This document shows positions 2,701 through 28,572 of a stretch of 34,325 nucleotides of DNA, piece by piece. The stretch is from positions 1 to 34,325 of the forward strand of contig PLGI01000143.1 of assembly GCA_003139775.1 (NCBI GenBank). The letters are read 5' to 3'. The notes beneath the pieces were generated by a model. It saw only the letters and a list, made by a program, of their open reading frames with translations, was not told the DNA's origin and ran no database searches. This DNA comes from Syntrophaceae bacterium (lineage in GTDB: Bacteria; Desulfobacterota; Syntrophia; Syntrophales; Smithellaceae). Both the position numbers and the translations under genes were made by a program. Position 1 is the stretch's first letter. Every line of letters begins with the position of its first letter.

Positions 2701-2840
2701 GTGGAACTCCCGCCGGCAGGAGCCGGGGGATTCCAAGTCGCGGGACTCAGTTCTTTTTATTGTTGAAACTCCAATTCCGAAAGCGTAGCGGAATTGGTAA
2801 GTTGAACAATCCCGCGCAGCGGAGGGTTTCATACCCGTGA
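2701..2840. repeat. Mosaic palindromic repeat, copy F
   Basis: This lies in the 416-bp spacer between the GpsA-like gene and the MORN gene, which are divergently transcribed. From 2762 it closely matches a second copy at 16259-16393. Shared modules are a hairpin CCAATTCCG-(aaagcgtag)-CGGAATTGG, then GGTAAGTTGAACAATCCCGC, then AGCGGAGGGTTT and ATACCCGTGA. The first part (2701-2750) is a G/C-rich imperfect palindrome framed by TGGAA and TTCCA. I see no gene in the spacer. Confidence 0.75.
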
Positions 2841-3006: not shown

Positions 3007-3672
3007 ATGGCCAAAACAAATGCGGTTCCCGAGGAAAACAAATTGCTTTTCTCCGATGGAACTATAAAAGAAAAAAAATTCCTCCAGGACGGTAAATTAG
3101 AAGGTGAATATACCTCCTACTACAATAATGGCCAAATAATGGCGCATCTGTTTTTTTTCCACGGCAAAAAAAATGGCGCGGCGGTGGCTTATTATAACGA
3201 CGGCCATGTAAGGGAAAAGGTAAATTTTATTAATGGCCGGATGGATGGCGAATATATTTCTTATTATGAAAACGGGCATATCAGAGAACATGAAAATTAC
3301 AAAAATGGTAAGCTCGACGGCAAATATCAAATTTATTATAAAACCGGACAATTAAAAGAAGAAGAAAATTTTAAAAACGGCAAATTTGACGGCGAGTATA
3401 TTTGTTACTATAAAAGCGGGCAAATCAAGGAGAGGGGGTGTTTTAAAAACGATAAACGGGAAGGCGAATATCTTGCGTATTTCAAAAGCGGGAAGATAAA
3501 AGAAAAAGCCACTTATAAAAATGGAAATTGTGTAGGCAAATTTCTTGTTTTCAATGAAGATGGTTCCCATTCCCCGGAAGCAAATACTGACGATGACGGC
3601 GTTCTGGATAATTGGGAAGAAAAAGATATTGCTAATTTGCTTCAGGACTTAAAACACTTCGAAAAAAAATAA
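3007..3672 (+). CDS. MORN-repeat (YwqK-like) protein
   Basis: The 221-residue protein is almost entirely tandem repeats of 24 residues, of the type KNGKLDGKYQIYYKTGQLKE. About six to seven units span residues 18-185, and an acidic tail follows (DDDGVLDNWEEKD). This is the MORN_2 / toxin-antitoxin YwqK-like fold, usually a protein- or membrane-binding beta meander. There is no signal peptide or membrane segment, so a cytoplasmic scaffold is likely. It sits 36 bp upstream of a tandem Usp gene on the same strand and may be co-transcribed with it. The 72-bp DNA periodicity makes the gene prone to expansion or contraction. The Shine-Dalgarno sequence is weak. Its function is unknown. Confidence 0.85.
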   Translation: MAKTNAVPEENKLLFSDGTIKEKKFLQDGKLEGEYTSYYNNGQIMAHLFFFHGKKNGAAVAYYNDGHVREKVNFINGRMDGEYISYYENGHIREHENYKNGKLDGKYQIYYKTGQLKEEENFKNGKFDGEYICYYKSGQIKERGCFKNDKREGEYLAYFKSGKIKEKATYKNGNCVGKFLVFNEDGSHSPEANTDDDGVLDNWEEKDIANLLQDLKHFEKK

Positions 3673-12659: not shown

Positions 12660-12960
12660 TTTAAGGATGATGTTTAATCCCGCGACATGGAAGCCTCCGG
12701 ATTCAGACTAGGTAGGAATGCGCCTTAACCCGCGGGAGATCGCATTATCCTCCGCTTCGTGGGATATCCCCGCTAAGCTACATTTGCGGGATCAATTCCA
12801 TTTGCGCTTCAAATTTCGTTTCACTCATTTTCAGCGAATGTCATTGATTCGACCTGTAAGCTTTAGTCGCAGATGACCTTCAGATTATGCACTTTATTTC
12901 TGAAGATGGGGTCTCATTATTGCAAGGAGCCTCCGGCTTCTGACGGGGGCTCCATTTAAC
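12660..12960. repeat. Mosaic palindromic repeat, copy D
   Basis: This fills most of the 515-bp spacer between gmhA and fdhE. It aligns along its length with copy B (28281-28572), sharing GGAAGCCTCCGG-type ends, AACCCGCGGGAG, CCTCCGCTTCGT, CAGATGACCTTCAG, TGCACTTTATTTCTGAAG, GGTCTCATTATT and a closing AGCCTCYGGCT(C/T)CTGACGG. No gene was found here. Confidence 0.75.
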
Positions 12961-14051: not shown

Positions 14052-14087
14052 AAAATAAAGCTCGCTGCAAGCAGTGAACTTTATTTT
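14052..14087. terminator. Probable bidirectional terminator between the NhaD-like gene and fdhE
   Basis: AAAATAAAG pairs with CTTTATTTT, and the stem continues as TCGCTGC/GCAGTGA with one mismatch. T-rich tracts follow on both strands, with the longer one on the plus strand. On the minus strand it would stop transcription from the NhaD-like gene before fdhE. Confidence 0.55.
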
Positions 14088-14088
14088 T

Positions 14089-14265
14089 TTATTATCCCGA
14101 TACGCTTCGCGTGCGGGATAATTTCCAATAGCTTTTGGCTATTGGATAATTCGACTAACAAACTTTAATACGCTTCGCTTTTAAAGTTTGAGTCTCATTA
14201 CGTCCAGCAAACTTTAGTGCAATTCGTTTCTGAAGCTTGGGTCTCATTATCAGCGAGTCTCATTA
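14089..14265. repeat. Mosaic palindromic repeat, copy A
   Basis: Three hairpins follow one another: ATTATCCCG/CGGGATAAT, TCCAATAGC/GCTATTGGA and AAACTTTAA/TTAAAGTTT. GATAATTCGACTAAC links the last two. The loops contain CGCTTCGC or TTTTG. The motif GTCTCATTA occurs three times (14192-14200, 14241-14249, 14257-14265). The last copy contains the TAA stop codon of the NhaD-like gene on the minus strand. Confidence 0.8.
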
Positions 14266-15726
14266 AAAGAATATAAAAGTCATTATAATGAATAAAACCA
14301 ATAAAATGGGTATGGAGTATTTAAACATGTATCCAAAGAAACTGGGCATCTTCACACCGGCTTCTTCGGCAATAGACTTGACCATAAAATTGGGCGCATT
14401 GCCGATATAGGTATTTGCTCCCATGAAGACTGCTCCGGCTGATACTGCCGTCAGATAAGGAATTTTTTCCACAATCAGTCGGGCAACCGCCTGAGCTTCC
14501 GGCATTCCCGGATAAAACTTACCGATTGCGCTGTTAAAGAAGGTCAGATATGTTGGAGCGTTATCCAGAAAACTGGAAAGAACTCCAGAAGCCCAGAAAT
14601 AATGCGCCGGTGTGTTGATTAATTTTATTAAGAATGCTAACGCTCCATTTTCGCCTGCTTTTATAATGGCCAGCGCCGGTATGATGGTCATAAAAATGCC
14701 CGCAAATAGATAAGCCACTTCTAATATGGGAGCCCAGCTAAACTCATTGCCCTGTCTGACTTCCAGCTTGGTGAAGATAAGGGATAAAAATCCCATAATA
14801 ATCAAAACGGCATCCTTGATTAAATTTGCGATGGATTGATGAATGCCGAAAATATTTACTTCGCCCAGCTTTATATTTCCGCTGAACAACACAGCGGCGA
14901 TGATGCCTGCCAGAAAGATAAAATTGTGAGCGCCTTCTATTTTTAAAGGTTCCATTTCCGGGCTTTGCAGGGCAGGTTTATCTTCTTTTTTGTAATAGAA
15001 TGAATCTAAAATAAAATACATGCCCAGAAGTATAAAACCAGCAAAAACCATCTGGGGTAGTAGTTTTAATGTCCAAAAGAAGGGAACGCCATGCAAAAAT
15101 CCAAGAAATAATGGCGGATCGCCCAGCGGTGTCAAAACGCCGCCGATATTGCTGACCAGAAAAATAAAAAATACTACTGTGTGGACTTTATGCTGACGCC
15201 GGGTATTGGAGCGCAATATTGGTCTGATCATCAGCATGGACGCGCCGGTAGTGCCGATTACGGACGCGAGTATTGTGCCGATAAGAAGCATAACAATGTT
15301 AACAGGGGGAGTTCCTTTGAGTGTGCCTTTAATATAAATGCCGCCCGAGACAGCGAACAATGCCCATAAGAGAATTATGAAAGGTATGTAGTCAACAATA
15401 AAAATGTGGACTATTTCGTAAACGGCGACTCCTTTAAAGAAAAACAAAAAAGGTAAAGCCAGAACCAGAGCCCAGAAGGCAGAAACTTTCGGAAAATGAT
15501 GCTCCCAAAAATGGGGCGCAAATAACGGAATTAATGCTATGGAAAGTAAGATACCGACAAATGGCAGCACAGACCAGATTGGAAGCAGGGCGCCAATATC
15601 GCTGGCCGGTAAGTTTGTCGCGGATGTATTGGCAAAACCGGCCGCCGGAACAAGGAGTGACGAGATTAATATCATGGGTAAAAAACAGCCAAATCGTTTC
15701 CGAAGATTATTTTCAATTTTCCACAT
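14263..15726 (-). CDS. Sodium:proton antiporter of the NhaD / ion-transporter superfamily
   Basis: This is a 487-residue integral membrane protein with an N-terminal signal-like segment and about 12 further hydrophobic segments. It carries the ion-transporter hallmark NIGGVLTPLGDPPLFLG in the first half and SSFLDNAPTYLTFFN plus GAVFMGANTYIGNAPNFMV in the second half, as in NhaD-type Na+/H+ antiporters and related arsenite/citrate permeases. A role in sodium or pH homeostasis at the inner membrane is most likely; the exact ion is not determinable. The gene is 11 bp downstream of a Usp gene on the same strand, so stress-linked co-expression is plausible. Its stop codon lies within repeat copy A. 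Confidence 0.8.
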   Translation of the reverse strand: MWKIENNLRKRFGCFLPMILISSLLVPAAGFANTSATNLPASDIGALLPIWSVLPFVGILLSIALIPLFAPHFWEHHFPKVSAFWALVLALPFLFFFKGVAVYEIVHIFIVDYIPFIILLWALFAVSGGIYIKGTLKGTPPVNIVMLLIGTILASVIGTTGASMLMIRPILRSNTRRQHKVHTVVFFIFLVSNIGGVLTPLGDPPLFLGFLHGVPFFWTLKLLPQMVFAGFILLGMYFILDSFYYKKEDKPALQSPEMEPLKIEGAHNFIFLAGIIAAVLFSGNIKLGEVNIFGIHQSIANLIKDAVLIIMGFLSLIFTKLEVRQGNEFSWAPILEVAYLFAGIFMTIIPALAIIKAGENGALAFLIKLINTPAHYFWASGVLSSFLDNAPTYLTFFNSAIGKFYPGMPEAQAVARLIVEKIPYLTAVSAGAVFMGANTYIGNAPNFMVKSIAEEAGVKMPSFFGYMFKYSIPILLVLFIIMTFIFF

Positions 15727-16148: not shown

Positions 16149-16258
16149 AACTACCTCCGAATAATTATCAGAAATTATATATCATCAACAATTTATGTCA
16201 ACCTTTAAGGCGGGATACGCCGCGAGATAATAATTATTACTTAAAAGCAGATGTTATT

Positions 16259-16393
16259 GTTGACACTCCAATTCCGAAAGCGAAGCGCAGCGGAATTGGT
16301 AAGTTGAACAATCCCGCAAAGCGGAGGGTTTAATACCCCGCAGCTTGCTGCGGAATCTGTTTCCAAAACTTGCTTTGGGGTTAATACCCGTGA
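16259..16393. repeat. Mosaic palindromic repeat, copy G
   Basis: This lies in the 380-bp spacer between the divergent Usp and phosphoesterase genes. It matches copy F (2762-2840): CACTCCAATTCCG, CGGAATTGG, GGTAAGTTGAACAATCCCGC and GCGGAGGGTTT. Relative to F it has an internal insertion of about 50 bp containing a CCGCAGC/GCTGCGG hairpin, flanked by ATACCC on both sides. The stem loop also carries five extra bases (CGCAG). Confidence 0.75.
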
Positions 16394-19361: not shown

Positions 19362-19399
19362 ACCTCCGTTCCCTTTTTAATGAAGGAACGGAGGTTTTT
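19362..19399 (+). terminator. Rho-independent terminator after the crotonase gene
   Basis: ACCTCCGTTCC pairs perfectly with GGAACGGAGGT (11 bp, 12-nt loop), followed by TTTTT. It lies 36 bp after the stop codon. Confidence 0.9.
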
Positions 19400-19584
19400 A
19401 ATGAGACTCGCTGAAAACGAATCCCGACGAGTCGGGATGAAGTTTGAAGCGTTAGTCGAATTATCCCCGAAGCGTAGCGGGGTGGGATTTGACACTCGCT
19501 GATAGTGAAACTCGTTGAGAGCGAATGAAGTGGTGCTCGAAGCGTAAGTGGAATTATCCCTGAAGCGGAGCGGAATGGGATTAT
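19399..19584. repeat. Mosaic palindromic repeat, copy E (inverted orientation)
   Basis: Its reverse complement reads through CCCCGCTACGCTTCGGGG, GATAATTCGACTAACGCTTC, a CCCGACTCGTCGGG palindrome and AGCGAGTCTCATTAA, matching copies A-C. A second, diverged GGGATAATTCCACTTACGCTTC unit is present. The TAATGAGAC end abuts the T-run of the crotonase terminator. Confidence 0.75.
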
Positions 19585-24960: not shown

Positions 24961-25043
24961 CTTATCCCGACAGTTTCGCTGCGGGATAATTCGACTAACA
25001 GATCTTGCCGTGCTTCGCTTACAATACCTGAGCCTCATTATTA
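24961..25043. repeat. Mosaic palindromic repeat, copy C, inside the mutase operon
   Basis: TTATCCCG and CGGGATAA form a hairpin with a TTTCGCT loop, followed by ATTCGACTAACA, a GTGCTTCGCTT segment and GAGCCTCATTATTA. It fills the gap between the large and small mutase genes. Its last three bases are the TAA stop codon of the large subunit on the minus strand. Confidence 0.75.
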
Positions 25044-28149: not shown

Positions 28150-28280
28150 CGGGATCCCCCTCTAAACGCTTGCGTGAATTTGTTTATAGGGAAGATAATC
28201 ATAAAATGTCAATAAAATTTCTCATAGATGTTTTTTATATAACATATTGGTTTTTTCTGATGTTCAGTCAATCCCTCGGT

Positions 28281-28572
28281 TTGGAATCCCCCGGCTTCAG
28301 CCGGGGGAGGAATGCGGTGTAACCCGCGGGAGGTCGCGTTACCCTCTGCTTCGTAGGATAATTTCCAATAACCTTTGGCTATTGGATAATTCGACTAACA
28401 AACTTTAATGCGCTTTGCTTTTAAAGTTTGAGTCTCATTACGACCGGCAAGCTTCAGTCGTAGATGACCCTATAGTGACCTTCAGGTTATTTAGGTTATG
28501 CACTTTATTTCTGAAGCTTGGGTCTCATTATTATAGGGAGCCTCTGGCTCCTGACGGAGGGGGCTCCATTGC
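28281..28572. repeat. Mosaic palindromic repeat, copy B, with an IS605-like terminal hairpin
   Basis: This lies in the spacer of about 570 bp between the ModE-like gene and fdhA. It starts with a perfect 9-bp hairpin TCCCCCGGC-ttca-GCCGGGGGA followed by GGAATGCGG. It then contains the copy A modules almost unchanged (TCCAATAACCTTTGGCTATT, GATAATTCGACTAACA, TTTAAAGTTTGAGTCTCATT) and ends like copy D (GGGTCTCATTATT, GAGCCTCTGGCTCCTGACGG). Confidence 0.8.

Follow-up and report, generated by a model that had tools for sequence, protein, structure and literature searches.

Composite repeats in the window

The window, by which we mean the whole 34,325-nt stretch of DNA that was analysed, comes from a Smithellaceae-like MAG (3.4 Mb, 206 contigs) whose mutase is 88-89% identical to those of Smithella and related deltaproteobacterial MAGs. 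Genes were called as simple long ORFs. An earlier note had described related palindromic repeats in five spacers, at 12660-12960, 14089-14265, 19399-19584, 24961-25043 and 28281-28572 (copies A to E, respectively), and direct reading, comparison and a covariance model place such repeats in all five (Table 1). The TAA of the second unit of copy B is the stop codon of a citrate-transporter-like gene (14263-15726), and an enoyl-CoA hydratase-like gene with its terminator directly precedes copy C.

With respect to composition, the same modules had been claimed for every copy. This description fits B, D and E, whereas A and C carry divergent modules (CAAT...ATTG, CGCT...AGCG and GACC...GGTC units) in the same architecture. 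The copies do occur in both orientations, C alone being opposite to the other four, and the gain and loss of whole modules can be followed down to an exact 20-nt insertion in a loop. The count of five was too low, as two more related copies, at 2757-2836 and 16254-16338, had been overlooked.

Table 1. Parts of the repeat copies located in the window, with strand and basis or remark
Feature	Position	Strand	Basis or remark
Copy B core, 54-nt unit TAAT-GA-GACTC-stem-GCGAAGC loop-stem-TTAGTC-GA-ATTA	14147-14200	-	covariance model 80.9 bits, pairing rule
Copy B second unit, GACC/GGAC type, fused to first, plus outer CGCTGA piece	14201-14265	-	reading, covariance model
Copy B optional module CCAATAGCTTTTGGCTATTGG, GATAATT duplicated	14117-14150	-	in B and E, missing from D
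Copy B second hairpin ATTATCCCG..CGGGATAAT	14090-14122	-	
Copy A, composite of about 280 nt	12679-12956	-	not in G001 spacer
Copy A CAAT-type unit	12793-12846	-	covariance model
Copy A GACC-type unit with 21-nt loop insert	12847-12921	-	
Copy C CGCT-type unit, CCCGACGAGTCGGG in loop	19399-19463	+	covariance model
Copy C second unit	19503-19556	+	pairing rule, covariance model
Copy D unit, between methylmalonyl-CoA mutase and B12-binding subunit genes	24987-25040	-	covariance model
Copy D second hairpin ATCCCG..CGGGAT	24964-24987	-	reading
Copy E, composite of about 298 nt	28273-28570	-	empty site intact in five relatives
Copy E 54-nt unit	28387-28440	-	covariance model 79.7 bits
20-nt micro-hairpin CTATAGTGACCTTCAGGTTA at GACC^TTTAGG inside another loop insert (copy E)	28470-28489	+	
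Related unit ATTGTT-GA-AACT...AGTT-GA-ACAAT, not in earlier note	2763-2809	+	comparison, covariance model
ATTGTT-type unit, second copy	16260-16311	+	comparison, covariance model

Several other sequences were seen near these parts. A hairpin, AAAATAAAGCTCGCTGCAAGCAGTGAACTTTATTTTT (14052-14088), adjoins copy B, is missing in relatives' spacers and may be another inserted module, and GGAATCCCCCGGCTTCAGCCGGGGG hairpins (2710-2745, 28272-28307 and 12676-12766) form a further GC-rich module found in and outside composites. The repeat ATCACGGGTATGAACCCCAAAGCAAGC...GCAGCAAGCTGCGGGG (16320-16390; loci L014, L015, L025 and L036) often adjoins units and looks like another mobile palindrome family. Within the ORF at 3007-3672, direct repeats about 144 nt apart (3245-3529) resemble those of proteins built from internal repeats.

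The 54-nt unit and its covariation

The core of the repeats, a unit of fixed 54-nt layout, reads most clearly on the strand complementary to the one given in the earlier note, in the order TAAT-GA-GACT-(c)-10-nt inner stem-GCGAAGC-type loop-10-nt inner stem-2 nt-AGTC-GA-ATTA. Among copies found by letters alone, most units are exactly 54 nt long, and others measure 65/66 or 74/75 nt with extra loop hairpins; a second hairpin, TCCC...GGGA, frequently comes after the 54-nt unit. The pairing rule combined with GA/GA gave 53 matches in own-genome loci versus none in shuffles. The covariance model, which was trained partly on the window copies that it then scores, returned units in copies A to E at 12793-12846, 14147-14200, 19399-19463, 19503-19556, 24987-25040 and 28387-28440 with E values from 2e-16 to 4e-6.

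Compensatory changes were found in 18 of 20 pairs among 41 distinct copies of the own genome (covariation 0.505, versus 0.198 when shuffled) and in 17 of 20 among 54 distinct copies from other genomes (0.496 versus 0.166), values that are inflated to some degree since both structural sets were selected partly by the model or by pairing. In the own-genome set the score was lost when pairing partners were slid. Because of this selection, two less biased tests were run. Specifically, among windows chosen by pairing with no letters required, 74 of 120 from own-genome loci and 43 of 73 from relatives had GA/GA as their internal loop, and in 947 kb of more distant (outgroup) DNA it falls outside the 12 commonest of 62. 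The outer 4-nt pair, left out of the selection, is fully paired in 126 of 161 units, whereas 2000 shuffles averaged 94 and never exceeded 104. These tests limit the inflation of the covariation by selection, without removing it. Structural covariation of the stems, which the earlier note had proposed as a check, is thus strong and well above shuffles.

The unit ends also vary with compensation (TAAT/ATTA, TAGT/ACTA, CAAT/ATTG and CAGT/ACTG). Taken together, a mismatch that is conserved while the stems around it covary speaks for a fold that is under selection or is recognised. A simple palindrome correction is disfavoured because GA/GA stays mismatched; were correction alone the source of the covariation, GA/GA would have become a perfect palindrome, yet it persists. 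The GA strand is presumably the active one, a reading that draws on general knowledge of tandem G.A pairs and of the GCGAAGC mini-hairpin.

Orthologous sites, nesting and distribution

At the site of copy B, beside the citrate-transporter-like gene, five congeners (G008, G001, G012, G011 and G015) carry no element, and G009 has a short spacer that contains a possible remnant. The own genome (G000) and G014 carry different elements beside this gene, both starting exactly at its stop codon. For copy E the insertion point GGTCAAT^GTATGCC is intact in five relatives, versus AGTCAAT-(about 298 nt)-GCATGCC in the window. Copy A is missing from the orthologous spacer of G001 and no copy C lies behind the orthologous gene in G008, L049 and L119, absences that refer to the orthologous spacer and not to a base-exact empty site, whereas the insertion points of B and E are clear. 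No clear and constant target duplication was found at the sites compared; ATTAAT stands on both sides of one G008 copy.

The spacer between the mutase and B12-subunit genes does not exceed about 16 nt in outgroup relatives. It holds different family members in G000, G009 and L048, and in G008 and L051 another palindromic repeat (TGTCATTCCGAG...; L223:5554-6065 in G008, and L051 after 11680), which encloses a small GIY-YIG reading frame; several unrelated repeat families have used this spacer in different species. One further spacer is occupied by just one element in G008, and by a nested mosaic of about 380 nt with the same outer ends in G011. Composites resembling A and E recur elsewhere in the own genome at 79-91% identity; those like copy E are 84-91% identical at three other loci, with a fourth, more partial one at 79%.

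Because relatives' orthologous spacers lack A, B, C and E, these comparisons, all of them between species, indicate that the repeat family has spread since the species separated. The "active or recent" spread proposed earlier is therefore upheld in this sense, and not as present activity, since the genomes compared are those of other species and the composites of about 290 nt are only about 84-91% identical.

Nesting is most easily read from a 20-nt micro-hairpin, CTATAGTGACCTTTAGGTTA, which with its variants gave 58 matches in the own genome versus 2 for the reversed control. In 30 loci that were read, C precedes it in all 30 and TT follows in 29, defining the site C^TT. The host loops, again by reading, are GCGC^TTCGC of the 54-nt units and AAAC^TTCAC of the CGCT type, and the micro-hairpin is also found at GACC^TTYAGG, which is its own loop, with self-nesting in L249. 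Independent insertions number fewer than 30, because composites give some of the loci a common ancestry; by eye, seven or more host contexts can be told apart. An automatic arm-complementarity score had a median of 4, equal to the null, but 30% of cases reached 8 or more versus 1.3% in the null; overall the score was not decisive, since the GA/GA loop breaks up many of the host stems.

All genomes compared are species representatives, mostly MAGs, and the copy counts are lower bounds. BLAST with copy B gave 53 matches in the own genome and the covariance model at least 150 units, while contigs picked blind to matches held 16 units in 231 kb, or about 240 when extrapolated to the whole genome. 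Further copies elsewhere are thus plentiful, and the estimate of hundreds per genome made from the window is borne out. Units occur in all 16 congeners and in 14 of 19 other family members, from 1 to more than 90 in each, with zero in five. Across the other families of the order, one of 24 genomes had a single match. A phylum-wide sample of 297 genomes gave matches in three, all of the same genus, although only 19 candidates per genome were scored, so that single copies could be missed. No match to any curated Rfam model was obtained at gathering or relaxed thresholds, nor any to the repeats in the phages, plasmids and viral contigs searched, and no description of the family was found in the open-access literature, all of which agrees with the suggestion that the repeats are undescribed, a description elsewhere being possible.

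These data also bear on whether the units could be structured host RNAs, such as terminators, attenuators, or leader or 3' UTR elements. The predicted RNA folds are stable, with folding energies that differ only modestly between the two strands, and some copies lie within operons or at 3' ends. Orientation relative to flanking genes is nonetheless unbiased (25 versus 19), Rfam gave no match, the units are missing from congeners' orthologous spacers, and copy number ranges from 0 to more than 90 within one family, which leaves a host RNA role highly improbable. The elements look selfish, and no host function was seen.

Possible routes of mobilisation and known systems

No ORF-bearing copy and no gene associated with units emerged from a split-half search or from clustering the 448 ORFs next to units, which returned only ordinary neighbouring genes. 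In the genomes tested for each, none of the Y1/RAYT, reverse-transcriptase or GIY-YIG genes tracks copy number. A GIY-YIG mobiliser was rejected, as the short own GIY-YIG gene has no flanking repeats and such genes are present in 20 of 20 genomes tested.

REP superfamilies are defined by a GTAG or CGTC tag and by association with RAYTs (PMC3733652), and REPtron-like mobilisation, with a RAYT/Y1 (HUH) transposase, would suit hairpins of 20-60 nt that are grouped in hundreds of intergenic copies, the more so as Y1 genes occur in 27 of 36 family genomes. Y1 gave no match, however, in the unit-rich genomes G008 (10 contigs, 98% complete, at least 87 units) and G026, nor in G011 and G012, whereas G020, G024 and G028 have 4, 2 and 1 Y1 genes, yet no units. 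The two own Y1 genes carry unrelated inverted repeats of their own in place of the family repeats, and the unit alignment contains no conserved GTAG or CGTC tag, although some top-strand copies read CGTC. Since the tag and the RAYT association were both tested and neither was found, we do not file the units as REPs, and this route is improbable; earlier mobilisation by a since-lost Y1 enzyme may have occurred. As regards the Y1 loci themselves, L034:6535-7497 (G000 C119) holds a gene for a RAYT-like Y1 transposase (about 333 codons) that has inverted repeats of its own, GGGGTCAAGTCTACTCTTGAC, and is of the TIR-flanked type, and L033:8512-9050 (G000 C135) an IS200-like TnpA gene between TACCCCG(C/T)CCACAGG(G/A)CGGGGTA-like hairpins.

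Classical MITEs, that is, deletion derivatives of insertion sequences moved via terminal inverted repeats, would likewise be short and numerous, with inverted-repeat ends and AT-rich targets. The ends observed here vary with compensation rather than forming a fixed terminal repeat, and no full-length parent appeared among the 448 unit-adjacent ORFs, the genome's transposase survey having covered Y1; we regard this origin as unlikely. RNA-mediated copying by a reverse transcriptase, for which structured RNA folds and the proposal made for yeast mitochondrial GC clusters (PMC4478555) offer a basis, is very improbable given that RVT_1 found no match in G000, G006, G008, G010, G021 and G026, each with at least 87 units.

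The failure of any candidate enzyme to track copy number would suit a process with no dedicated enzyme, in which replication template switching or slippage at hairpins makes, copies and nests palindromes, as would the finding that insertions occupy a 3-nt motif within hairpin loops. Against this stand the composites of about 290 nt at unrelated sites and the GA/GA mismatch, kept though template correction would give a perfect palindrome. We therefore consider template switching on its own rather doubtful.

In terms of target choice, the left motif of copies B and E (TAA and CAAT) is already present in the empty sites, with the far end of the element as its complement, and in the mutase spacer ACTA occurs where the stop codon is TAG, and ATTA where it is TAA. 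This match fits target recognition by pairing with the element end, although an ordinary stem would give the same picture. A test of whether the target tetranucleotide is repeated at the right end, following IS200/IS605 logic, gave no support.

Overall, the repeats are probably a new family of small, non-autonomous, nesting palindromic mobile DNA elements of Smithellaceae, whose folded hairpins would be inserted by a trans-acting enzyme or by replication. Units would enter AT-rich intergenic sites, typically after AAT and in many cases at stop codons or immediately past terminators, as well as beside and inside one another, and whole composites could then move as one piece. A folded single strand may be recognised through the GA/GA loop and the GCGAAGC-type mini-hairpin; a short element end (ATTA/ACTA/ATTG) would pair with the target (TAAT/TAGT/CAAT), and the trans-acting enzyme or replication machinery would join the hairpin to the target or to another hairpin's loop. 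Trans-mobilised or replication-driven insertion of folded strands is the most likely reading because no gene tracks copy number, target pairing fits although an ordinary stem would look the same, and the right-end test failed. More tentatively, a chromosomal system that recognises folded strands could let hairpins of 20-60 nt enter AT-rich targets via end pairing and the loops of other hairpins (the 20-nt form at exactly C^TT, its own loop included), with recursive growth and an enzyme unlike known Y1 repeat transposases.

These repeats reshape operon spacers and supply stop codons. For the question of how short bacterial palindromes spread without a transposase of their own, as with CGTC REPs and BOX, the elements leave readable records, namely stems that covary round a mismatch kept constant, an end covarying with the target motif next to it, and an exact C^TT loop site in 30 loci, so that the recognition rule is directly testable.

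Presence or absence at orthologous sites and high copy number without coding capacity, both found here, mark the broad class of small non-autonomous mobile palindromes. Rickettsia palindromic elements, Correia/NEMIS and ERIC are short palindromic interspersed bacterial repeats, which we liken to the Smithellaceae repeats by general description and not by sequence; to our knowledge, nesting of this kind is not known in them. BOX elements consist of tandem boxB copies between boxA and boxC. Pneumococcal BOX is modular, structured, confined to a narrow taxon and thought parasitic (PMC3049150), a likeness shared by the present interspersed repeats, whose modules, in contrast, nest within hairpin loops. 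REP/BIME elements resemble them as small palindromes in hundreds of grouped, intergenic copies, and CGTC REPs also have no known transposase (PMC3733652), whereas the Smithellaceae unit has no GTAG/CGTC tag or REPtron and is set apart by its 54-nt length, GA/GA internal loop and loop nesting. In the way they work, the repeats resemble REPs and BOX elements as well as mitochondrial GC clusters. The last, together with double-hairpin elements, are palindromic and mobile, and in yeast mitochondria GC clusters merge and shuffle into composites with no known enzyme, copying by reverse transcription having been proposed (PMC4478555). The Smithellaceae repeats differ in lying on a bacterial chromosome and not in an organelle, and in their covarying GA/GA architecture and C^TT loop target; judged by behaviour and not by sequence, GC clusters appear to be their nearest match.
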